NCBI GenBank assembly: GCA_005893305.1
Contig: VBOZ01000001.1
Location: forward strand, 6,584 to 70,583
Reading direction: 5' to 3'
Length of the DNA: 64,000 bases
From: Candidatus Eisenbacteria bacterium
GTDB taxonomy: Bacteria > Eisenbacteria > RBG-16-71-46 > SZUA-252
Part shown: one piece after another, positions 23,204-43,825 of the stretch
Numbering within the stretch: the stretch's first letter is position 1
Layout of the letters: every line of letters starts with the position of its first letter
Notes under the pieces: generated by a model
Databases searched by the model: none
Told to the model about the DNA's origin: nothing
Seen by the model: the letters and a program-made list of their open reading frames with translations, nothing else
Program-made: the position numbers and the translations under genes

Positions 23204-25200
23204 TGTCCGCCCGACCGTCAGCCGCCCTCATCTGCGCCCTGGCGCTCATCGCGTGCGTCTCCCCCGCCCACGCCGCGGACGACGGCGGAACCCGATCGGT
23301 GTTCGCATCGGGCGCGGGCAATCGCGCCCTCGCCTTGGGAGGCGCGTTCGTCGGCCTCGCGGACGACGCGAGCGCGATGATCTGGAATCCGGCCGGCCTC
23401 GGCATCCGCCAAAGATTCGAGATCCTGGCCACCCACGCCGAGTACGCGGACCTGGGATCGCAGCAGGATTTCGTCGCTGTCGTGCTCCCGAACTGGCGCT
23501 GGGGCACGGCGGGCATCTCGATCCTCCACTTCGGCATCGGGGGCGTCGAGCAGCGCGACGATCGGAACCTCCTCCTCGACGGCGGCCTCTCCGATTCGCA
23601 GACCGAGATCGCGCTCGGCTTCGGACGCTCTCTGGGCGACGCCGTGAGCGTCGGGGGAACGGTGAAGCTCCAGCGTCAGAGCCTGGCGGGATTCAGCGGC
23701 AGCGGTCTGGGTCTCGACGCCGGCGTTCTCCTGCGCGCGGGCGCGCTGCTTCGCACCAACGCCGATTGGGCGAGTCGCCTGACGTGGGGACTCTCGGTGC
23801 GCAACCTGATCCCTCCCTCGATCCGCCTCGACCAGGAGAGCGTGCCCGACCCCGCCGTGCTCCGATCCGGAATCGGCTTTCGCGCGCCGGCCCCTGGCGG
23901 GCGGTCCGCGCTTGTCCTCCTCGACTTCGAGAAGTCCGCGGGCGTGGCGACGAAGCTTCATGCGGGGATGGAATTGCAGCTCCACCCGCTTCTCGGCATT
24001 CGCGGCGGGTTCAATTCGGGCCGGCTCACCGCGGGCACGGCCGTCGCCTGGCGCGGCTTCTCCGTGGACTACACCTACGAGGACGGCGACATCACGGGCG
24101 TCCATCGATTCGGAATCTCCCGGGCCCTGGGCATGACGGTGTCCGAGCAGCGGGAGGCGGCCTCGCAAGCGAAGGAAAAAGACCTCCAGGCAAGGCTCGA
24201 CGATGCGTTCCAGAAACGGCAGGCGAAGCAGGTCGAGGATCTCCTGGCTCGCGTGCAAGCCTCCGAGGCCCGCGGCGAGTACGAGTCGGCGCTCGACCTG
24301 CTCGGGACGGTCGACCTTCTCTATCCCAATCATCCCCAGGCAGCGGCGCTCCAGGCGGCCGCCCTGCGCGGTCGAGGAAAGCAGCTCGAGGACGCGTCCG
24401 ATTACGCCGCGGCCGCGCTCGTCTACGGTCGGGCTCTCGCGATCGCCCCAGGGGACTCCGCCGCGACCGCCGGCCAGCGCCGCTGCCGCGAGGCGGGCGA
24501 CCGTCGGGCTGCTCGCACCGAGAGCATCCGCCGGAAGTTCGCCGAAGCTTCCGACGCGTTCGCGGCGGACTCGCTTCCGGCGGCGCGGATCGGCTTCGCC
24601 GGCATCCTTGCGGTCGACCCGAAGGACGCGGACGCCGCCCTCATGCTCCGCCGAACCGAGCAGGCGATCGCCCGCCGGGCTGCGAGCCTCATCAAGCAGG
24701 CACGGCAGAGTATCGAGGCCCAGCTTCCTGACGAGGCCGAGGGGCCCCTGGCCGAGGCGAGAAATCTGGATCCGCAGGCCGACGGGCTCCGAGACGCCGC
24801 CGCGGCGCTGGCACGTGCTAGGGCAGCCGCGGCCGGGGTCGCCGCGGTCGTGAAAACGGAGAAACCGCAGCCGCCCAGCCCGGAACAGGACCGCGAGGTG
24901 GAGGCCCTCTATCGGGGCGGCCAGACCGCGATGCAGGAGCGCCGGCTCGACGACGCGCTCCGCTACTGGGAGCTCGTCTGGTCCATCCGGCCCGGGTACA
25001 AGCGCGTCGACGAATACTTGAAGCGCGAGTACCTGATGCGCGGCATGGAATTCTTCGCGTCGGGAAAACTGGATGAAGCGGTGAGCTGCTGGCAGCGGGT
25101 GCTCCAGGTCGACCCCAAGGATTCACGCGCGGCCGGGTACATCGCGCGCGCCCGCACGCAGCAGGCCCGGACCCGAGAGATCCTGGGAGAGGGTCGATGA
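23200..25200 (+). CDS. PorV-like outer-membrane protein fused to TPR domain
   Basis: 666 residues. The ATG overlaps the giant gene's stop (ATGA). A signal peptide (to about HAADDGG) is followed by a PorV-type barrel (about 25-320) with the family hallmarks GAGNRALALGGAFVGLADD and SAMIWNPAGLG. From about 330 a helical region begins with a charged segment (REAASQAKEKDLQARLDD), then several TPR units to the end, including LRYWELVWSIRPGYKRV and VSCWQRVLQVDPKDSRAAG. Known PorV proteins end with the barrel, so the TPR half is an addition, presumably in the periplasm and binding partners there. Its own stop overlaps the phosphatase start (ATGA), which links membrane protein and signalling in one message. 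Confidence 0.82.
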   Translation: MMSARPSAALICALALIACVSPAHAADDGGTRSVFASGAGNRALALGGAFVGLADDASAMIWNPAGLGIRQRFEILATHAEYADLGSQQDFVAVVLPNWRWGTAGISILHFGIGGVEQRDDRNLLLDGGLSDSQTEIALGFGRSLGDAVSVGGTVKLQRQSLAGFSGSGLGLDAGVLLRAGALLRTNADWASRLTWGLSVRNLIPPSIRLDQESVPDPAVLRSGIGFRAPAPGGRSALVLLDFEKSAGVATKLHAGMELQLHPLLGIRGGFNSGRLTAGTAVAWRGFSVDYTYEDGDITGVHRFGISRALGMTVSEQREAASQAKEKDLQARLDDAFQKRQAKQVEDLLARVQASEARGEYESALDLLGTVDLLYPNHPQAAALQAAALRGRGKQLEDASDYAAAALVYGRALAIAPGDSAATAGQRRCREAGDRRAARTESIRRKFAEASDAFAADSLPAARIGFAGILAVDPKDADAALMLRRTEQAIARRAASLIKQARQSIEAQLPDEAEGPLAEARNLDPQADGLRDAAAALARARAAAAGVAAVVKTEKPQPPSPEQDREVEALYRGGQTAMQERRLDDALRYWELVWSIRPGYKRVDEYLKREYLMRGMEFFASGKLDEAVSCWQRVLQVDPKDSRAAGYIARARTQQARTREILGEGR

Positions 25201-27284
25201 CGCCGATTCTTCCGCGCCGGACGGTTTGGAGCATCCGCTGGATCGTCGCGTGCGCCGCGGTCGTGCTCACGACGCTCATCGTGCTCGGCGTGACCTCGTT
25301 CATGGAGAAGAGGACGCGAAACGTCCTCGCGCGGGAGATCGAGAGCCGCCTGATGCTCCAGGCTCGGAACCTCGCCCTCACGAGCTCGGGCGCCATCGTG
25401 ACCGATTACCCCGAGCTGACCCTGGCGCCGCTCGCCCGGGAGATGCAGGCGCGCCAGCCCGAGCTGGCCCTCGTGGTGGTCCTGGACCGCCACGGCAACA
25501 TCCAGGGCCACCCGGACGTCCGCCTCTTGAGCGGCCCCTACACACCGCCCCCGGGGCTCGTCCCCGTCCCGACCACGGCGCCCCTCGGGCCGCACGAATC
25601 GATCACGGGGAACCGGCAGATGCTGGTGGCGTCGGCTCCGATTCTCAATTCGCGCGGCGAGATCCTCGGCAGCGCCCTCGTGGGTCTCAACCGGGCCTAC
25701 GTCGAGCAGGCGATGGGGCAGATCCGCAGGCAGCAGTTCCTGATCCTGGGAGCGTTTCTCCTCGCCGGGGCCGCGCTGTCGTTCGGGCTGATGTCGCTCC
25801 TCCTCCGGCCCATCGGAGCGCTCCGCACCGGCATCGAGCGGATCGGGCGCGGGGATCTGAGCACGCCGATTCGGCTCGCGAATCGGACCGAGTTCGGTCT
25901 CTTGGCGGAAGAGGTCAACAGCATGGCCTCCGCGCTGATGAAGGCGCAGACCGAGATGGTGGAGCGCGAGCGTCTCGCCCGCGAGATGGAGCTGGCGCAG
26001 CAGATCCAGCGCTCGATCCTTCCCTCGGGCCAGACCGTCGCCGGCGAGTTCGTGGTTCACGGCGGGCACTGGGCGGCGGCCGAGGTCGGAGGCGACTACT
26101 ACGACGTGATCCCCCTCCCCGACGGGAAGATCGCGCTGGCCGTCGCGGACGTCTCGGGGAAGGGCCTCGCGGGCTGCCTCATCACGGCGATGATCTTCTC
26201 GCTCCTCCGGGCCCTGCGCTCGATCCATCACTCCCCGGCCGAGCTTCTCGCCGTCCTCGACGAGCGTCTCGGCGAGACGCTCCAGCGGGGAAGCTTCGTC
26301 ACGATGTTCTACGGCGAGCTCGATTCCAAGACCGGACGATTGGTCTACTCCTCCGCGGGACACAATCCGATTCTGGTCTACCGGGGACAAACGCGCCGCA
26401 CGGAGTGGCACCGGTCGAAGGGAATCCCGCTCGGAGCGATCCGGGGCGGAGCGATCCGCCGGACCCTCGAGGACCAAGTCATCGACCTCGCCCCGGGCGA
26501 CTCCCTCGTCCAATTCACGGACGGGATCAACGAGACGAGCGATCCTCTCGGGCAGGAATTCGGATTCGACCGGATGGAGACGATCGTTTCGGTCGCGGGA
26601 CCGTCGGGCGCGCGAGGGATTCTCGACCAGCTCCACCACGCGGTCGAGAAGTGGCGGGGCGACGGATTGCCCATGGACGACGAAACGGTGCTCGTCGTCA
26701 GCCGGGACCCCGGCGCCCGACCCGGCCCCGGAGCGTTCTCCGTGGACGGATCCACCCTCGCCCTTCCCGACGCGGAGCGTTTCGAGGCCGCGCGGAAGCG
26801 CGGCACGAGCATCCAGCTTCCCGCGACCCTGGACTCCCTCGTGGGGATCCGCGAGTGGCTGGACCGATCGGGCGCGGCGCGAGGTCTCTCGAGCGGCGGG
26901 GCCGACATGCTCGATCTGGTCCTCTACGAGGTGTGCGCGAACGTCGTGGAGCACGGATACGGAAAGGACCCTGCGCGGACGCTCGAGCTCTGGTGGCTGC
27001 CCGGCGCGGGTCTCGCGGCCGGTCCGGGTTCCGCGGCCGGTCCGGCCACGCGGGGTTGCTTCGTCCTCCGGGATGAGGGGCGCCCGTTCCGGCCCGACCG
27101 GGCGAAGAAGACGGACTACGAGGACCCCGCGGTTCGGAAACGCGGGCGTGGGTTCGGGCTCGACATCATCTACAGGACGATGAGCGCGGTCGTCTATCAC
27201 CCCGGGACAAACGTGGGAAACATCACGGTCCTCGAGTGGGACCCGCTGAAGCTCGAGCAGCAGGACGAGGTGCCGAATGCGTAA
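25197..27284 (+). CDS. Membrane sensor with HAMP, SpoIIE/PP2C phosphatase and RsbW-like HATPase
   Basis: 695 residues. Two transmembrane helices (about 12-32 and 175-200) flank an extracytoplasmic sensor region. Then come HAMP (about 200-255), a coiled linker and a SpoIIE-type phosphatase (about 270-500) with the metal-binding motifs VGGDYYDV, ADVSGKG, SSAGHNP and FTDGINE. Residues about 535-690 form an anti-sigma-type ATPase: N-box YEVCANVVEHGYG and G2 box RGRGFGLDII. In partner switching the phosphatase (RsbU) and the kinase (RsbW) act in opposite directions on a STAS protein and are normally separate chains; here they share one. The STAS target is probably the domain encoded at 28613. Confidence 0.88.
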   Translation: MTPILPRRTVWSIRWIVACAAVVLTTLIVLGVTSFMEKRTRNVLAREIESRLMLQARNLALTSSGAIVTDYPELTLAPLAREMQARQPELALVVVLDRHGNIQGHPDVRLLSGPYTPPPGLVPVPTTAPLGPHESITGNRQMLVASAPILNSRGEILGSALVGLNRAYVEQAMGQIRRQQFLILGAFLLAGAALSFGLMSLLLRPIGALRTGIERIGRGDLSTPIRLANRTEFGLLAEEVNSMASALMKAQTEMVERERLAREMELAQQIQRSILPSGQTVAGEFVVHGGHWAAAEVGGDYYDVIPLPDGKIALAVADVSGKGLAGCLITAMIFSLLRALRSIHHSPAELLAVLDERLGETLQRGSFVTMFYGELDSKTGRLVYSSAGHNPILVYRGQTRRTEWHRSKGIPLGAIRGGAIRRTLEDQVIDLAPGDSLVQFTDGINETSDPLGQEFGFDRMETIVSVAGPSGARGILDQLHHAVEKWRGDGLPMDDETVLVVSRDPGARPGPGAFSVDGSTLALPDAERFEAARKRGTSIQLPATLDSLVGIREWLDRSGAARGLSSGGADMLDLVLYEVCANVVEHGYGKDPARTLELWWLPGAGLAAGPGSAAGPATRGCFVLRDEGRPFRPDRAKKTDYEDPAVRKRGRGFGLDIIYRTMSAVVYHPGTNVGNITVLEWDPLKLEQQDEVPNA

Positions 27285-27403
27285 TCCGCTCAAGGCCCTC
27301 AAACAAGCGATCGCGGCGCCGGCGGCGCCGGCGGTAGACCCATCCGACGTCACGGTTCGCGCCTTCATGGAAATGAGCCACCTGCTCACGCTGCGTCAAC
27401 CTC
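27277..27403 (+). pseudogene. N-terminal fragment of GAF histidine kinase (frame broken)
   Basis: ATG 27277 overlaps the phosphatase stop by 8 bp and has a GAGG ribosome-binding site, as expected for the true start of the kinase. The frame gives about 40 plausible residues, ending FMEMSHLLTL, and then loses sense. The downstream frame continues with VNLMGQLKTT, which looks like the same GAF-domain helix. A lesion near 27385-27400, probably a loss of about 3n+1 bases, separates the two parts. Confidence 0.6.
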
Positions 27404-28963
27404 ATGGGGCAATTGAAGACCACTCGGGCCTGCCTCTGGCTGGTTCCGGAGGGAGGCGCCAGCTTCCCGGTGCTCGTCAAGTCTCACGGGGTGGACGAGG
27501 CGCAGGCACGGCTTGTGATCGAGCAGGGCGCCGCGACGCTGATGGAGCGATCCCGCGCGAGGCCGAACCCGCTCGTGGTCGCGGACCTGGCTGCGGGGAC
27601 GGACGGATCGATGCGAGACGTCGCCGACCGGGCTGGGCTCCGATTCTTCGCCCCGATCTGGGTTCGAGGAGAGATGCTCGGCATCCTCGCGCTCGGGGCG
27701 CGCTCGGACGGGGCCCCCTATTCCGACCACGACATCCGGGCCCTGCAGGCATCCCTCGCCATCGCCGGCGTCGCGATGCAGAACGAGAGGTTCTACGGGC
27801 GGCTCCTGGAGCGAAACCGCGAGCTCCGAATGGCCAACAATCGACTCAAAGAGTTGGATCGGTTGAAGTCCGAGTTCATCGCAAACGTGAACCACGAGCT
27901 TCGAACGCCCCTGACGGCCATCATCGCCTCCCTGGACTGCGTCGCCCGCGCCGAAGAGAGTGGCGTGACCGACGGCAACGCTTCCGGGCGCCAGCTGCTC
28001 CACTACGCCGGCAACCAATCGCGGAAACTGCTGTCGATGATCGAGAACCTGCTCACGTTCTCGGAGGCGGAGCAGGATTCCCTTCGCCCCGATTTCGTGA
28101 CCGGAGACGTGGTCGCCGCGGTTTCCGACTACTACCTCGAGCGCGTCCCGGGCGTTTCGTCGGAATTGAGGGAATTCACCTGCGTGCGCGAAGCGAACGT
28201 ATTGCAGGGGAAATTCGACGAGCAGCTCCTGAGGCAGATCCTGGACACCCTGATCGACAACGCGGTGAAGTTCACCGCGGCGGGCGCGCGGATCCAGCTC
28301 CGCGTGCGCCGGGTCGCGCAGGACGGTGGGGAGTGGATCGGGATCGACGTCGTCGATGACGGGCCCGGCATCCCGGCGGACCGGCTCTCCGCTCTCTTCG
28401 AGCCGTTCCAGCAGCTGGACGGCTCCATGACCCGTCTCGTCGGCGGCATGGGCTTGGGGCTTTCCCTCGCCCGGCGGCTCGCCGAGGGGCTCGGCGGTCA
28501 CCTGACCGCAACGAGCGAGCCGGGCAAGGGTTGCATCTTCACGTTGCTACTGCCTGCGGTCGTACAGCTCGACGGCAATTCTGCCGATAGTCCAGATGGG
28601 AGGAGGCTCGCCATGACCAACGAATTGGAGATCTCGAAACCGGAGGATCGCGGTGAAGCGGTGCTTCTGCGGGTCAAGGGCCGCCTCGACGTCAAGACGT
28701 CTCCCATCCTGTTGCAGCGGGTCGCCGAGATCCAGGCTAACGGTCAGAATCTGGTGCTGAACCTGTCCGAGGTCTCGTTCATGGGCTCGAGCGGCATCGG
28801 CGCTTTGCTGGTGTTGGTGGAGCAGTTTCAGGAACAGGGCGGGAGCGTGCGGTTCGCCTCTCTCTCGCCCGCGGTCGACTCGGTCGTCAAGCTCTTGAAC
28901 CTCGACCGGTTCTTGAGCATCGACGCGACCGAGACCGCATCGTTCGCGGCGCTCGGAGCCTGA
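27404..28963 (+). CDS. GAF histidine kinase with in-frame C-terminal STAS domain
   Basis: 519 codons as read from ATG 27404. A GAF-like domain lies at about 1-130. The kinase core follows, with H-box NVNHELRTPLTAI, N-box DTLIDNAVKFT, G1 DDGPGIP and G2 GMGLGLSLA. After a short linker the frame continues into a STAS domain (about 404-519). ATG 27404 is unlikely to be the natural start: it has no ribosome-binding site and the true N-terminus seems to be the fragment at 27277, now out of frame. The enzyme probably senses a cytoplasmic signal through GAF and phosphorylates a response regulator such as the one at 30276. The STAS part may also be made separately. Confidence 0.82.
   Translation: MGQLKTTRACLWLVPEGGASFPVLVKSHGVDEAQARLVIEQGAATLMERSRARPNPLVVADLAAGTDGSMRDVADRAGLRFFAPIWVRGEMLGILALGARSDGAPYSDHDIRALQASLAIAGVAMQNERFYGRLLERNRELRMANNRLKELDRLKSEFIANVNHELRTPLTAIIASLDCVARAEESGVTDGNASGRQLLHYAGNQSRKLLSMIENLLTFSEAEQDSLRPDFVTGDVVAAVSDYYLERVPGVSSELREFTCVREANVLQGKFDEQLLRQILDTLIDNAVKFTAAGARIQLRVRRVAQDGGEWIGIDVVDDGPGIPADRLSALFEPFQQLDGSMTRLVGGMGLGLSLARRLAEGLGGHLTATSEPGKGCIFTLLLPAVVQLDGNSADSPDGRRLAMTNELEISKPEDRGEAVLLRVKGRLDVKTSPILLQRVAEIQANGQNLVLNLSEVSFMGSSGIGALLVLVEQFQEQGGSVRFASLSPAVDSVVKLLNLDRFLSIDATETASFAALGA
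28613..28963 (+). CDS. STAS domain (RsbV/SpoIIAA-like) with its own internal start
   Basis: ATG 28613 lies inside the kinase frame, six bases after GGGAGGAGG, the best ribosome-binding site in the cluster. Translation from it yields a free 116-residue STAS protein: RLDVKTSPILLQRV, then LNLSEVSFMGSSGIGALL. The motif around the usual phospho-acceptor Ser is GSSG instead of the common DSSG. STAS proteins are the switch partner of the RsbW-type kinase and SpoIIE phosphatase, both encoded at 25197. It may be a separate gene whose upstream stop was lost, or a true fusion with internal initiation. Confidence 0.6.
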   Translation: MTNELEISKPEDRGEAVLLRVKGRLDVKTSPILLQRVAEIQANGQNLVLNLSEVSFMGSSGIGALLVLVEQFQEQGGSVRFASLSPAVDSVVKLLNLDRFLSIDATETASFAALGA

Positions 28964-28976
28964 GCGGAGACGATCC

Positions 28977-30260
28977 ATGAGCACCGGAAATCGACAGATC
29001 GATTCGGGCACCCGCGCTCCGCGCGCCTCCACCAAGGGCGCGGAGGCGGCCTCGCGGCTCGCCGCGATTCAGGATCTCTCCGACGACGCGATCGTGGCCA
29101 TCGACCTGGATGGAATCATCACCGGCTGGAGCCGCGGCGCCGAGCGGATCTACGGATATCCCGCGGAAGTGATCCTCGGCAATTCGATCTCCGTTCTGGT
29201 CCCGATGGACCGGCGCGACGAATGGCCCCAGATGATCACGAGCATCAAGCTTGGGGACCAGGTCCACCACCTGGAGACCGTCCGGCTCCGAAGCGACGGC
29301 GCTCCGATCGACGTGTCCCTCTCGGTCGCTCCCACGCGCGACGACGCGGGGCGCGTGACCGGCGGCGTGGCGATCGCGCGTGACATCACGGCGGTCCAGC
29401 AAGCGCTGGATCAGGCTGAGCGGAGCAGCGAGAAATTGAGCGAGCGGGAAAAGGCGCTCCGCCAGGCGCTGGCGGCGCTCCGCAAGTCGCACGAAGAGGT
29501 CAAGACCGCCCAGCTCCAGCTGGTCCAGGCGGCGAAGCTCGAATCGATCGGGCGTCTCGCCGCCGGGGTCGCCCACGAGGTGAAAAATCCGCTCGCGATC
29601 ATCCTCTCGGCGGTGGAGTTCCTCTCGCAGGCGGTTCCGAACCCCGACCCCGACGTCACGATGGCCATGGCCGACGTGCAAGAGGCCGTGCGGCGCGCGG
29701 ACCACGTCATACGCGGTTTGCTCGATTTTTCGCACGCCACCGAGTTCTCGCTGGAGGACGGAAATCTGAACGAGATCCTCAAGAAGTCGGCCGGTCTGGT
29801 CCGCCACTCGCTCTCCAAGGCCCACGTCACGCTGGTCAATGAGTTGGGGAGCGACCTCCCGAACATCATGCTGGACGCCTCGAAGATCGAGCAGGTCTTC
29901 GTGAACCTCATGATCAACGCGATCGACGCGATGCCCTCGGGCGGCACGTTGACCGTGAGGACCTCGCGGCGACGAATGACGGTGGGGCCGCACGTCGGAA
30001 TCCGACGGACGGACCAATTCCGTATCGGGCAGAGCGTCCTCGTCGTCGAGATCGAGGACACGGGCACCGGCGTCGACGAAGCAACCCGGATCAGGCTCTT
30101 CGATCCGTTCTTCACCACCAAGCCGACCGGCAAGGGAACGGGGCTCGGCCTCGCGATGAGCAAGACGATCATCGCGCTCCACGGCGGCACGATTCAAATC
30201 GCCAACCGTGAGAACGGCGGTGCCCGCGCCACCGTCGTCTTCCACATTCAGAGCTCTTAA
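28977..30260 (+). CDS. PAS-domain histidine kinase
   Basis: 427 residues, with no membrane segment. A PAS domain lies at about 25-145 (DDAIVAIDLDGIITGWSRGA, VAIARDITAVQQ), followed by a coiled-coil linker (145-190) and a kinase core: H-box GVAHEVKNPLAI, N-box NLMINAIDAMP, G1 DTGTGVDE and the F/G2 region FFTTKPTGKGTGLGL. It resembles NtrB/AtoS-type soluble kinases. It starts 13 nt after the STAS stop and ends 15 nt before the response regulator, so it is part of the same operon. Confidence 0.9.
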   Translation: MSTGNRQIDSGTRAPRASTKGAEAASRLAAIQDLSDDAIVAIDLDGIITGWSRGAERIYGYPAEVILGNSISVLVPMDRRDEWPQMITSIKLGDQVHHLETVRLRSDGAPIDVSLSVAPTRDDAGRVTGGVAIARDITAVQQALDQAERSSEKLSEREKALRQALAALRKSHEEVKTAQLQLVQAAKLESIGRLAAGVAHEVKNPLAIILSAVEFLSQAVPNPDPDVTMAMADVQEAVRRADHVIRGLLDFSHATEFSLEDGNLNEILKKSAGLVRHSLSKAHVTLVNELGSDLPNIMLDASKIEQVFVNLMINAIDAMPSGGTLTVRTSRRRMTVGPHVGIRRTDQFRIGQSVLVVEIEDTGTGVDEATRIRLFDPFFTTKPTGKGTGLGLAMSKTIIALHGGTIQIANRENGGARATVVFHIQSS

Positions 30261-30275
30261 GGGAGGGATGCTCCA

Positions 30276-30482
30276 ATGGAAAAGATTCGCATACTCCTGA
30301 TTGACGATGAGCCGAGCTTCACGCGGATGCTGAAGCTGAACCTCGAGCGGACCGGTGCGTTCAAGGTCCACTGCGAGAACAAGTGTTCTTGGACGTCATC
30401 ATGCCTGACGTCGACGGGGGCGAGGTCGCGGCGCAGATCCATGCCGACCCCAACCTCAAGGACACGCCGATCGTGTTTCTGA
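30276..30482 (+). CDS. Response regulator, N-terminal fragment (frameshifted)
   Basis: The frame starts with a good ribosome-binding site (GGGAGG) and gives the first strand and helix of a CheY-like receiver: KIRILLIDDEPSFTRMLKLN with the acidic DD pair. After VHCENK (near 30381) the frame turns to non-receiver sequence. The rest of the receiver resumes in another frame at 30383. Compared with the family, about 17 residues (helix 2 and the start of strand 3) are missing, which fits a loss of about 3n+1 bases. Confidence 0.6.
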   Translation: MEKIRILLIDDEPSFTRMLKLNLERTGAFKVHCENKCSWTSSCLTSTGARSRRRSMPTPTSRTRRSCF

Positions 30483-30643
30483 CCGCAGGCGTCTCGAAGG
30501 AGACGACGCGCGCGAAGCCGGTCATCGGCGGGCGAACGTTCCTCGCGAAGCCCGTGAGCACGGATGAAGTGCTCCGCTGCATCGAGAAGCAGCTCGGCAG
30601 GAAGGTCGGGGATTCGTCTGGAACCTCAACGGCCGGCGCCTAG
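30383..30643 (+). CDS. Response regulator, C-terminal fragment (frameshifted)
   Basis: This continues the receiver in a different frame: FLDVIMPDVDGGEVAAQI contains the phospho-acceptor Asp, then PIVFLTAGVSKE and the conserved Lys in FLAKPVSTDEVL. No output domain follows, so the intact protein would be a single-domain CheY-like regulator. Its GTG 'start' at 30383 lies on the lesion and is probably not used. Its 3' end overlaps the convergent regulator gene by 18 bp. Confidence 0.6.
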   Translation: MFLDVIMPDVDGGEVAAQIHADPNLKDTPIVFLTAGVSKETTRAKPVIGGRTFLAKPVSTDEVLRCIEKQLGRKVGDSSGTSTAGA

Positions 30644-31054
30644 TCCTCGGACATTGTGGCTGAGCAGGGTCTCGACGGTGCGGAGAAGCTCGCCCGAGGT
30701 GACCGGCTTGGTCAGATAGGCGTCCGCGCCGTGCCCGAAGCCGAGCAGGCGGTGCTTCGGTGAGTTGAGCGCTGTGAGCATCAAGACCGGCAGGTGCCAC
30801 GGGCGGTAGAGACGTCGAAGCTCGGTGCAGACTTCGTATCCGCTGATATCCGGCAGGATCAGATCGAGGAGCACCAGGTCCGGCCAATGCTCCGCGACAA
30901 CCACCAGCCCCGCCTTCCCGGTGTGCTCCATTCGAACTTCGTAGCCCGCCCGCTGCAGATGGCATCTCAGGTGTCTCGCCAGCGCCTCCTCATCTTCCAC
31001 AATGAGGATTCGTCCGTGGCTCGCTGCCGCCTTCCCTGCTTCGCTGTCGGCCAA
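30626..31054 (-). CDS. Single-domain response regulator
   Basis: 142 residues from TTG 31054, with GGAGAG about 8 nt upstream. A complete CheY-like receiver is present: RILIVEDEEALARHL with the acidic pair, phospho-acceptor Asp in LVLLDLILPDISGYEV, Thr in VLMLTALN and Lys in YLTKPVTSGELL. No DNA-binding domain follows. It converges on the broken receiver of the plus-strand operon with an 18-bp overlap. A sigma-54-like site lies about 310 bp upstream, which would give a long leader. Confidence 0.85.
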   Translation of the reverse strand: MADSEAGKAAASHGRILIVEDEEALARHLRCHLQRAGYEVRMEHTGKAGLVVVAEHWPDLVLLDLILPDISGYEVCTELRRLYRPWHLPVLMLTALNSPKHRLLGFGHGADAYLTKPVTSGELLRTVETLLSHNVRGLGAGR

Positions 31055-31570
31055 CGACGGGCTCTCCGAACGGGACCGGCTCTACCCAAGGGCGGAGGCG
31101 CAAGCGCGCGAGCCTGTCCGGGTTGATGCCGCTTGGAAGATATCGGCCGATTCGGGAAAACGATGAGCGAGAGGCGGGCGTGTAACCGCTTACGCGGGTG
31201 AGGATTGCGGAAGGATAAAAAAATTGAGCCCCGGCCTTGCCAGCTCTCTTCGGGTTACGCCGCTTCTTCCGAGGCCGGTGCTCGAATTGGCGGCTAACCC
31301 ATGGTCTAACGCTGGCTAGGCCTGCGGGCTCTTTGGAGGTCCCCCCCTCCGGGCACTTTGCATTGCATCCCGCGTGCCAAGATTTTGCAGGTCCGAAACA
31401 AGTGAACTCGCGAGCGCGTAACAGGATGTTAATTTGATGGTTAGCTCATTGTTTGAATCGTCGCCGATGGGTAGCTTGGAGGGTTGGGGCACGCCGGAAG
31501 TGGGGTCTAATTTGACAGTGAAACCAAGCGGAGTCGGAAGTTGGTTTATTCACATATACTTACGACTATT
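31055..31570. other. About 515-bp non-coding stretch, AT-richer than its surroundings
   Basis: No credible gene was found. Read on the minus strand, it could be the promoter and leader of the response regulator at 30626-31054. It holds the sigma-54-like site at 31364-31379, a stem of CCGGCCT/AGGCCGG (31231-31237 with 31272-31278) and a run of A (31217-31223). The part from 31380 to 31570 is markedly lower in GC. Small frames such as 31434-31730 on the plus strand run into the antisense of the activator gene and are not supported. Confidence 0.55.
31364..31379 (-). promoter_or_regulatory. Sigma-54-like promoter upstream of response regulator
   Basis: On the minus strand TGGCACG-CGGG-ATGCA matches the -24 element perfectly and the -12 element with one change (A for the first T of TTGCA), at the correct spacing. 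Transcription would start near 31353 and read towards 31054. Confidence 0.4.
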
Positions 31571-34500
31571 AAGTAGTTTAATAACTACTTTTAAGCCTTT
31601 TGACGACTTGGGATCCTTCGATCGAGGCGGAAGAGCTTTATCTTCTGCAATAGCGTCGGGTAGGAGAGCGAGAGCTCCTTGGCGGCCTGAAGCTTGTTCC
31701 AATTGTGACGCTCGAGAGCCTGCGAGATGAGCCGGCGCTCCACCTTGGCAACCTCGGCCCGGAGCGTGGACGGCGAATCGCCGTTCTCCTCCTCTTGCTT
31801 GAGAAGGTCGCGGGGCAACAGCTCGATCGACAGCGTGTCCCCGTCGTTGGCCATGACGACGAGGCGCTTCACGACCTTCTCCAGCTCGCGCACATTCCCC
31901 CGCCATGGAAGGCCGGCCAGGAGGGAAATCAATTCCTGGTCCGCGCCGCGGATCTCTTTCCCCATCTCGGTCGCGAAGCGCCGGCAGTAGTGCTCGACCA
32001 AGGGCGGCACGTCCTCCGGCCGCTCGCGGAGCGGCGGGACGCGGAAGCAGATGTCGTTCAGCCGGTAGTAGAGGTCCTCGAGAAATTCGCCGCGCGCGAT
32101 CCGCGCGTTGAGATTCACGATTCACGTTGGTGGCGCAGACGACGCGGACATCCACCTTCGTCGACTTGTTCCCGCCCACCGGACGCACTTCGCGGTTGTC
32201 AAGGACCTGTAGGAGTTTCCCCTGGATCGTGATCGTCGTTTTGTCCACCTCGTCGAGGAAGAGGGTCCCGCCGTTCGCCTCGACGAAGAGGCCCACCTTT
32301 TCCCGCACGGCGCCGGTGAAGGCGCCCTGCACGTGGCCGAACAACTCGCTCTCGAGCAGCTGCTCGGGGAGGGCCGCGCAGTTGACCTGGATGAGCGGCT
32401 TCGTCGCGCGGGCGCTGGACGCGTGGATCGCGCGCGCCAGGAGGCCCTTGCCGCTCCCCGTCTCGCCCTCGATCAGGATCGTCGCGTCGCTCGGGCCGAC
32501 CCGCTCCAGCAGGGAGAGAATCTCGAGCAGCTCGGGGCTTCGCGTGACGATGCCGTGGTCGTTGGCCGATCCCATGAGGCGCCCCCGGAGCGCGGAATTC
32601 TCGCGCGCGAGCCGTTGGCGCGATAGCTCGAGGATCGCCACGGCGACATGGTTCGCGAGCATGGCGATCAGATTGATCTCCCGCTGCTTGAAGGCGCCAA
32701 GCGCGCTCTCCTCCGGGCGGTCCAGGTAGAGGTAGCCCGGAAGCCCCGACGGGAGCGAGAGCGGCATGATCGCGATGCTTGTGCGCGGGCTCAAGTGGGT
32801 GGTGCCCGGCATGTCGCGGAAGCGTGCATCGGCGCCCGCCCGGCTCGAGACCACGGGGGCCGAGGCGAGGCGCGCCGCCCCGATCCGGCGCTCGAGCTCG
32901 CTCAGGAGATCCTGCGCGACGCGATACGACATTCCCACCGACGCGACGATCTCGATCCCGCCGTGGACGGCGGGCGCGGCCACGCAGCCGCGCGCGGCGG
33001 TCACGCGGCGCGCGGTAACGGCCAGCACATCCTGAACCGCCGACTCGGCGTCGACGCCCCGGAGCACGCTCCGGATTTCCTCGAATGCCGAGAACTCGTT
33101 GCTCTGGGCGGAAGTCCCTTCGATCAAACCCTGCTCGATCTCGGCGCGGAACTCCTCGATCTCGCGCGCGAGGGCCGGGTCGTCTTCCGGCGAGAGCAAC
33201 GAGGAGGCGTGATCCAAATGAAGCACCGCCTCGTCGACCTGGCCCCGCATCAGCTCGCTCCGCGACAGCTCGAGCAGGGCACGCGCCGTCAACGTGGGCA
33301 GCGCCAGGCTCTCGTATGCCGCCACCGCGCGGCGGAGGAACCCGATCGATTCGTCGAGAATGCCCCGAGACTTGCCCTTCCGCGCTCGCCGCCGCCACGC
33401 AAGGCCGGCGCCGAGGTTCAAGCGCGCGAGCTCGTAGCGCTTGCCGATCGAGAGGAGAATGCGGCTCGCCTCGCCAAGGCGCTCCTGAGCCGACGGCAGA
33501 TCGCCCGCCTCGGCAGCCGTCAGGCCGAGGAGCCGGAGCGAGCAGGCCTCCTCGATGCGGTCACCCAGGCGGCGCGCGATCGCAAGTGCCCTCTCGCCGC
33601 TCCGCTTCGCGCCCTCGATCTCGCCCATCCGAAGCTGCGCGTCCCCGAGGCGGCGGACCAGCTCGACGGTGAGGTCGGAATCGGGGGCGATCTGGTCGGC
33701 CATCGCGAGGCCGGTTTCGTACTCGGCCCGCGCTTCGGGGAGCATGTCGCGGTCGGCGTAGAGATCGCCGAGCGTCTCTCGCGAAAGAATCGTCTCCCGT
33801 GGGAACCCTCGCTCGACCGACAGGGCGAGCGCCTGCCGGATCAGGTTCTCGGCGGTGGCGAAGTCGCGGCGCTTGCGGCGCAAATTGCCCAGGCAGAAGA
33901 GGGCCCGCGCCTTCCCAACGGGGTTTCCCACCTCGGTGTTCATCTGGAGCCCGCGGCGGTAGTGATCCTCGGCTAGGTCCCATTCGCCCATCTTCTCGTG
34001 CACGATGCCGAGGTTGTGGACGTAGGTCGCCGAGTCGTGAAAGAGACCCGAGCGCTCGCCGATCCGGAGCGCCTGCTCGAGGAACCGCGCCGCCTCCTTG
34101 AAGCGGCAGTGGTTCTTGTGAAGGAGGCCGAGGCTGTTGTACGCCGAGGCCATCCCCGCGTCGTATCCGGCGCGCCGGTAGGTCGCGATCGCGCTCTCGA
34201 AATACTCGCGGGCCGCGTTCCAGTCCCCGGTGCGGAGGGCGATGACCCCGAAAATCATCTCGGTGCGCCCGATATCGAGGTTCAGGGTCGTGTCGCGGAG
34301 GAGGCGATACGCGAGGGTCGCCGCGCGCTGCGCGGGGCGATACCGGCCACGCTCGAAGAGGAGCAGCGCGAGGCTGGCCGCGAGGCGCCCCGCCTGCTCG
34401 CGAGTGACATGCGGGCGGAGGCGGCGGTGTAGATCGTGGAGCGAGTCGACGGCTTCGTTCAGGTCGCCGCGATGCCGCAGACACTCGACGATTTGCGTCC

Positions 34501-42439: not shown

Positions 42440-43825
42440 TTACGGCGCGTCCGAGCTGCCCCCGGCCGGCGGCGCGGCCGTCGGAGCCGCGGGAGCGGCG
42501 GGAGCGGCGGGACCACTCGACGAAGGCCACCACTGCGAGCCCACGGCACCCGCCCCGCGCGGTCCGATGCCGAAGCGGGTCAGGAGCATCGCTCCGAATC
42601 CCGAGGTCGTCACGATCGCGGCGAGCGCCCCGGCCGCGATGCCCAACGCGATCGAGAACGGGTGGAAGAACAGGAGCCCGATCAGCTGCAACAGCTCGCC
42701 GGCCAGGCGGAGCACGAAGAGGAGCACGAGGCCGACCAGGACCGCCACGATCGGCTTGCCCGCGCGCGCCGCGTTCTTGGCCAGGATGCGACGACCCAGG
42801 TACATCGCGCCGTTCAGGAATCCCACGAACACCGCGACCAGCGCGCCCACGCAGATGCCGACGATCCCGATCACCAGCGCGACCGCGAGCAGGATCGCCA
42901 GGGGAATGCCGATGATCGTGATCGCGAGGATGGCGATCGCGATGACGCCGACGAGGACCAGAAGGACGATCCCGGCGGGAATCGCGACGACCATCGCCGC
43001 CCAGCCGAGGAGTCCCCATAGGAACGACTTCCCGAACCGCTGGCTCATCACGTCGACCGCATGGGTCATGCGGTTGCCTATGAAGAGGAGCGCGAGCCAC
43101 GCGAAGAATCCCGTGAGCAGGAGCTTGACGATGCTCGTCACGATTCCCAAGATGCCGGTCCCGACCGCTCCGAATAGTCCGAGCATCGGCCAGGGGCAGG
43201 AGCCCATGTGGAAGCCCCCGAGGGAGACGTTGCTGCCGGCCACGGTGCCCGAGTCGCTCGTCGTGACGCCGCCCCCCATCGAGACGGCGTCCCCTTCCAC
43301 GATGCCCTTGCCCTTGATGTGAACGGTGCCGCCGATCGCGGTGACGTCCCCTTTCACGCGGCCAAGGACCGTCACCGATCCGCCGATCGCCACGACGTTG
43401 CCGTCGATCACCTTGTCCTCGGGGATCGTGATGTCCTCCCCGAATCGGACGACGTCGTTGTCGCTGTTGTCGAACTTGATGTGCTCCGGAACGTCCGGTT
43501 TATCCGGTTGATCGGGCGGCTCGGGAGGTACCGGGACCCGCGAGGCGCGCGCTTCCGCGCGGGCGCGTCGCGCCTCTTCCTTGGCCCGCTCGAGCGCGTA
43601 TCGCGCGGCCTCGACCTTGGAGGTGCCTCCCTCTTCCCGAACCCGCACCCTGAATCCGCCGTCGGTCGCCGTGGAATCCGACGCCGCGGTCTTCGCGGTG
43701 GGCGTGGCTCCCGATGCCGGACTCCAATAAAGAGCCAGGGCGAACCAGAAGGCGACGAACGTCAATGGAATCCAGATCCGTACCGCCACGGTCAGCGCCC
43801 GTGTCCTAGAGCGAGAGGCATGCAT
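42440..43825 (-). CDS. Bactofilin-like domain fused to polytopic membrane domain
   Basis: 461 residues from ATG 43825, seven bases after GGAGGT. One transmembrane helix (about 15-35) is followed by an Arg/Ala/Glu-rich coiled segment (65-95) and a Pro/Asp linker. A short right-handed beta-helix-like repeat (about 110-190) follows, with VIDGNVVAIGGSVTVLGRV and GDVTAIGGTVHIKGKG, typical of bactofilin-type polymer-forming proteins. Five or six transmembrane segments (about 205-430) and an Ala/Pro-rich tail complete it. It overlaps the anti-sigma gene by 20 bp and is probably a target or effector of the sigma/anti-sigma pair in envelope stress. Confidence 0.75.
   Translation of the reverse strand: MHASRSRTRALTVAVRIWIPLTFVAFWFALALYWSPASGATPTAKTAASDSTATDGGFRVRVREEGGTSKVEAARYALERAKEEARRARAEARASRVPVPPEPPDQPDKPDVPEHIKFDNSDNDVVRFGEDITIPEDKVIDGNVVAIGGSVTVLGRVKGDVTAIGGTVHIKGKGIVEGDAVSMGGGVTTSDSGTVAGSNVSLGGFHMGSCPWPMLGLFGAVGTGILGIVTSIVKLLLTGFFAWLALLFIGNRMTHAVDVMSQRFGKSFLWGLLGWAAMVVAIPAGIVLLVLVGVIAIAILAITIIGIPLAILLAVALVIGIVGICVGALVAVFVGFLNGAMYLGRRILAKNAARAGKPIVAVLVGLVLLFVLRLAGELLQLIGLLFFHPFSIALGIAAGALAAIVTTSGFGAMLLTRFGIGPRGAGAVGSQWWPSSSGPAAPAAPAAPTAAPPAGGSSDAP

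Follow-up and report, generated by a model that had tools for sequence, protein, structure and literature searches.

A STAS domain with its own strong ribosome-binding site in the reading frame of a histidine kinase from Candidatus Eisenbacteria

STAS-domain antagonists of the RsbV/SpoIIAA type are small proteins with a serine-containing loop, encoded next to a gene for a PP2C phosphatase/HATPase kinase. According to the published passages cited here, both kinase and phosphatase activities act on the STAS protein in the SypE–SypA pair of Vibrio fischeri (PMC12826045, PMC8256260), and SiaA of the Pseudomonas aeruginosa SiaABCD system is likewise a kinase/phosphatase acting on STAS (PMC9239204). 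The excerpt on Mycobacterium tuberculosis Rv1364c describes a multidomain PAS–PP2C–kinase–STAS protein (PMC10950880). A precedent for two products from one gene comes from SctQ/Spa33, where initiation at an internal in-frame codon additionally yields the C-terminal domain by itself, both products having been shown experimentally in the cited account (PMC8211105).

The locus described here, part of a stress-signalling operon, shares the STAS fold, the serine loop and the adjoining phosphatase/kinase gene with RsbV/SpoIIAA-type antagonists, and places the antagonist in the frame of a histidine kinase. We favour, with a probability of about 0.6, a reading in which the free STAS start and its Shine-Dalgarno (SD) sequence are ancestral, a kinase gene came to abut them and runs through 19 codons into STAS, and free STAS is the main product.

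Architecture of the kinase–STAS frame

The window, that is, the whole stretch of 64,000 nucleotides analysed, was compared with 47 genomes of the phylum, nine of them from the family of the window; the class and phylum searches covered this identical set. Three genomes recur below: G007, from another genus of the same family, and G003 and G006, from the genus of G007. The region comprises the following features.

25197–27284, plus strand: RsbU-like protein with sCache_3_2, HAMP, SpoIIE (PP2C) phosphatase and HATPase_c_2 (RsbW-like serine kinase) domains (Pfam, orthologues)
27277–27388, plus strand: natural start and N-terminal part of the GAF kinase, in a frame different from that of the remainder (sequence, ORF list, relatives)
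27404–28612, plus strand: GAF–HisKA–HATPase_c histidine kinase body, its frame open into STAS (ORF list, Pfam)
28556–28612, plus strand: 19-codon linker from the normal kinase end (..LLLP) to the STAS start (comparison with G007, homologues, codon-position counts)
28598–28606, plus strand: Shine-Dalgarno sequence GGGAGGAGG, 6 nt upstream of ATG 28613 (sequence, SD energy)
28613–28963, plus strand: STAS domain of the anti-sigma-factor-antagonist type with an FMGSSG phosphosite loop (Pfam, TIGR00377, solved-structure match, homologue alignment)
28977–30260, plus strand: PAS–HisKA–HATPase_c histidine kinase, the next operon gene (Pfam, relatives)
30276–30643, plus strand: response regulator with a break near 30380, where 46 nt are missing by comparison with G003, G006 and G007 (Pfam, relatives)
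30626–31054, minus strand: second receiver-domain protein, convergent, a neighbour conserved in G003, G006 and G007 (profile match, relatives)

The 519-residue ORF at 27404–28963 (plus strand) matches the Pfam families GAF, HisKA, HATPase_c (residues 272–385) and STAS (residues 416–510), and includes ATG 28613 in frame. HATPase_c and STAS lie in the same frame with no stop codon between them, which bears out the sequence-only reading on the open kinase frame. That reading had also placed a strong ribosome-binding site six bases before the ATG of a full STAS domain, and a TGA in the +1 frame overlapping this ATG. Both are found exactly: GGGAGGAGG is followed by CTCGCC and then by ATG 28613–28615, and the TGA occupies 28614–28616. 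An internal start with its own SD inside a longer frame, the arrangement of SctQ-type dual products, is thus present at 28613.

Computed against a generic anti-SD tail, the SD duplex energy at ATG 28613 is −12.1 kcal/mol. This strength is reached at 0 of the 38 predicted ORF starts compared in the window (ORFs of codon score 40 or higher, taken from 46 listed) and at 1 of its 275 other internal in-frame ATGs. An internal in-frame ATG at 43825 on the minus strand, with an SD of −13.0, exceeds the STAS start and may reflect a wrongly called start or another internal start.

Translation from ATG 28613 gives 116 residues that form a complete STAS domain, scoring 67.1 bits against PF01740 (cut-off 22.6) and 65.2 bits against TIGR00377 (curated cut-off 53.45), with SpoIIAA (1th8) as its best solved match and 74–77% identity to its G007 and G003 counterparts. 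A PP2C phosphatase and a HATPase kinase are encoded beside it, as in partner-switching modules, by the SpoIIE and HATPase_c_2 domains at 25197–27284; the HAMP–PP2C part of this protein resembles SiaA, by a weak model match below the cut-off. The STAS region is likely a SpoIIAA/RsbV-like phospho-switch protein on which the RsbU-like phosphatase/serine kinase encoded upstream probably acts, the domains and gene order being observed and the enzymatic activity inferred. No sigma factor was identified beside STAS among the proteins scanned by profile.

The sequence-only reading had singled out GSSG in place of DSSG at the phosphosite. GSSG is present, and we dropped it as a special feature since [GAS]SSG, with both serines kept, is the norm in 11 of the 11 homologues read, none of which has aspartate. 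The residue before SSG is glycine in the window, G007, G003 and G006, alanine in G004, G012, G039, G014 and G011, and serine in G028 and G023. Judged from this alignment, the absence of the aspartate is the norm of the lineage.

Recurrence of the junction in related genomes

Kinase matches at E ≤ 1e-50 were found in 8 of the 47 genomes, counting that of the window. Kinase and STAS share one open frame only in the window and in G007, which repeats the stop-free junction with a linker of identical length; the rarity of the fusion (2 of 47 genomes) counts against our preferred reading. The two frames are 58% identical over 509 residues, and the kinases alone 54%. In the kinase tree, the window and G007 form one clade with the G003 kinase outside the pair (support 96/96 and 100/98). 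Two stand-alone GAF kinases are encoded elsewhere in the G003 genome; one entered the tree, and the second, cut by a contig end, was left out.

STAS has its own stop-delimited frame in G003 and in seven other genomes. G004 (same family as the window), G028, G012, G039 and G014 encode the RsbU-like protein, STAS and the GAF kinase in this order as separate genes, while in G011 and G023 STAS directly follows the RsbU-like gene and the stretch read holds no full GAF kinase match. Beyond the genera g1 and g2, STAS was found in seven genomes, and in 7 of these 7 it is a stand-alone gene with a homologous start, right after the RsbU-like gene. Its SD energies are −12.1 (G004), −11.4 (G028), −3.3 (G012), −8.0 (G039), −12.7 (G014), −7.7 (G011) and −10.0 (G023), a clear SD in six of the seven. 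The separate kinases of the non-fused genomes terminate at most about 18 residues past the last HATPase strand.

In G003 and G006 the order is RsbU-like protein, STAS, PAS kinase, response regulator and second receiver protein, and the GAF kinase is absent. The STAS start and SD are kept there without an adjoining kinase (−11.7 in G003, −11.3 in G006). The DNA upstream of STAS in both genomes resembles the 3' end of the kinase genes in the window and G007 (a GTTCARTTTG-like stretch, CCGATGA and the SD), and in G003 a ATGCGTAA overlap like that at the kinase start of the window persists after the RsbU-like gene. Because of this kinase-like leader and overlap remnant, we read G003 and G006 as having lost a kinase by deletion rather than as having lacked one from the outset; the opposite course, insertion of a kinase before a pre-existing leader, is possible as well.

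Short ORFs stand in place of the kinase in G003 (L041, 7048–7142) and G006 (L042, about 7456–7330), with a TGA that overlaps the STAS ATG, and possibly keep translational coupling. We rejected them as conserved leader peptides, such open lengths being judged common by chance. The G006 STAS lacks about 30 N-terminal residues and shifts frame (L042, about 7320–7310) beside a GAGATC motif; the window has this motif too, at the other edge.

G001 and G002, the two other genomes from the genus of the window, yielded no close relative of the RsbU-like protein, the kinase–STAS protein or the PAS kinase, which leaves the comparison to other genera. A scan of genome contigs returned five distant kinases only. 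A query made of the kinase end and STAS matched 805 of 72,556 plasmid records; none covered 80% of the query and the fusion was not found.

The linker comprises 19 codons in the window and in G007, differing at 25 of 57 nt with no net indel. These differences fall 10/6/9 on the three codon positions, with no third-position excess, as compared with 18/9/40 in STAS (300 nt) and 29/17/46 in the 300 nt of kinase sequence that end where the linker begins. At that substitution count, the chance of a stop-free linker is about 0.74. From these two observations, the linker appears to behave as a tolerated spacer, and lends no support to selection on the fusion as a protein.

The alternative that best survives is one in which the DNA is fused at the junction but the fusion is biologically idle, the stop having been lost at no cost, free STAS doing all the work and the fusion being a tolerated by-product. 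The unbiased linker and the odds of its being stop-free by chance favour it, as do the two genomes that manage with STAS alone, G003 and G006, and the seven others in which STAS is separate. Two genera whose kinases are 54% identical have nevertheless retained the same phase and length, and we regard idleness as possible, if rather doubtful.

Reality of the open frame and predicted products

The sequence-only reading had offered a second explanation, that an upstream stop was lost. In its artefactual form, an assembly or sequencing indel conceals a true kinase end at TGA 28614–28616, overlapping the STAS start as ATGA. In the window linker, codon usage is slightly better in the ATGA frame (+0.66 versus −2.82 for the fused frame), which counts against our preferred reading, whereas in the G007 linker the fused frame scores better (−0.47 versus −4.50). 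The window, G007 and the G006 leader agree in the phase from the VQ..AD motif to the STAS ATG; in G003 the leader has 1 nt fewer and the frame closes at the TGA of ATGA.

Three further frame breaks in the surroundings speak for such an error. About 35 nt present in G007 and G003 are missing from the window kinase after about 27388 (27388–27404), causing a frameshift; the response regulator carries its 46-nt gap; and a sigma-54 AAA protein changes frame. These three breaks in the surrounding 11.7 kb amount to one per about 3.9 kb. In the response regulator (break at window 30370–30385), the receiver domain stays in frame over its C-terminal half only, and the frame of the TPR/sigma-54-activator protein (window 31550–32118, minus strand) changes between the AAA domain and the lid/HTH. 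In G007 the kinase N-terminus is intact, and the STAS end shifts frame into the PAS kinase, with a gap at L022 about 2327. Neither the window nor G007 is clean across the entire operon, and we count this against the preferred reading as well.

At three breaks per 11.7 kb, we estimate a chance of about 1.5% that one falls in the 57-nt linker, and a second, matching break would be needed in G007, an independent genome. Since G007 shares the stop-free junction and the 19-codon linker, a chance indel in the window assembly is possible but improbable. The junction looks like a genuine, if small, case of gene fusion in which the internal start was inherited, sequencing error being unlikely.

The proposal that the cell could make both a fusion and a free STAS protein held in part. 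The junction is real and recurs in G007, and the STAS start and SD are conserved even without an adjoining kinase, which makes a kinase–STAS fusion plus free STAS the natural prediction; against it, the linker is unconstrained and the kinase start of the window is frameshifted. The natural kinase start, ATG 27277 (SD −7.2), overlaps the RsbU-like stop (ATGCGTAA), and its frame closes at 28359. As assembled, translation of the fusion would begin at ATG 27404 or further in; this earliest ATG of the fused frame, 27404, lacks an SD (+1.2 versus −12.1 at 28613).

The gap of about 35 nt in the kinase N-terminus is either a real mutation or an assembly gap. If the assembly is right, the cell would make mainly free STAS, because the out-of-frame gap cuts off the natural kinase start; were the gap an artefact, the fusion and free STAS would both be made. 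Two products from one frame are plausible. That the fusion is the sole product, ATG 28613 and its SD being silent relics, is very improbable: the domains do lack a separating stop, yet the SD surpasses all 38 ORF starts tested and is kept in G007 and the kinase-less relatives, and the natural kinase start of the window is out of frame, with no SD at ATG 27404.

A model of the locus and its relation to known systems

In our preferred model, STAS would formerly have been a stand-alone gene after the phosphatase gene, already equipped with this start codon and strong SD. A gene for a GAF histidine kinase would have come between the two in the lineage that includes the window and G007, and its frame, lacking a stop, continues into STAS over the 19 codons of the linker. 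Ribosomes starting at ATG 28613 would make free STAS as the main product, and, judging from the open frame, each ribosome translating the kinase body would yield a kinase–STAS fusion. The RsbU-like protein, with its PP2C and RsbW-like domains, probably both dephosphorylates and phosphorylates STAS, by analogy with partner-switching systems as described in published passages (PMC8256260, PMC12826045, PMC10950880).

We speculate that kinase-bound STAS could bring the RsbU-like enzyme to the histidine kinase dimer. One frame might then supply two antagonists, one diffusible and one anchored to the kinase dimer, so that the sensor recruits or titrates the phosphatase/kinase and couples both signalling systems; we advance this only tentatively and consider it unlikely. 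If both products are made, the locus would be a compact tie between a histidine-kinase sensor and a partner-switching module, and a gene fusion caught mid-step, the downstream gene retaining its own start. Annotators would call a single 519-residue gene and overlook free STAS.

Among titles and the beginnings of abstracts, we found no histidine kinase–STAS fusion, which is not proof of absence. RsbV/SpoIIAA-type antagonists differ from this one in standing outside a histidine kinase frame and in their DSSG loop. SypE–SypA and SiaA act on free STAS, and the cited passages mention no fused sensor histidine kinase (PMC12826045, PMC8256260, PMC9239204). Rv1364c is similar in that its STAS belongs to a signalling protein of several domains, a GHKL kinase domain among them; in the excerpt, its phosphatase, serine kinase and STAS form one chain (PMC10950880), whereas here STAS sits on a HisKA histidine kinase, and the phosphatase and serine kinase are a separate protein. 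SctQ/Spa33, as described in the cited account (PMC8211105), is an unrelated protein, and the two products, shown by experiment there, are only predicted in our case. Dual products at this locus would be a variant of known biology.
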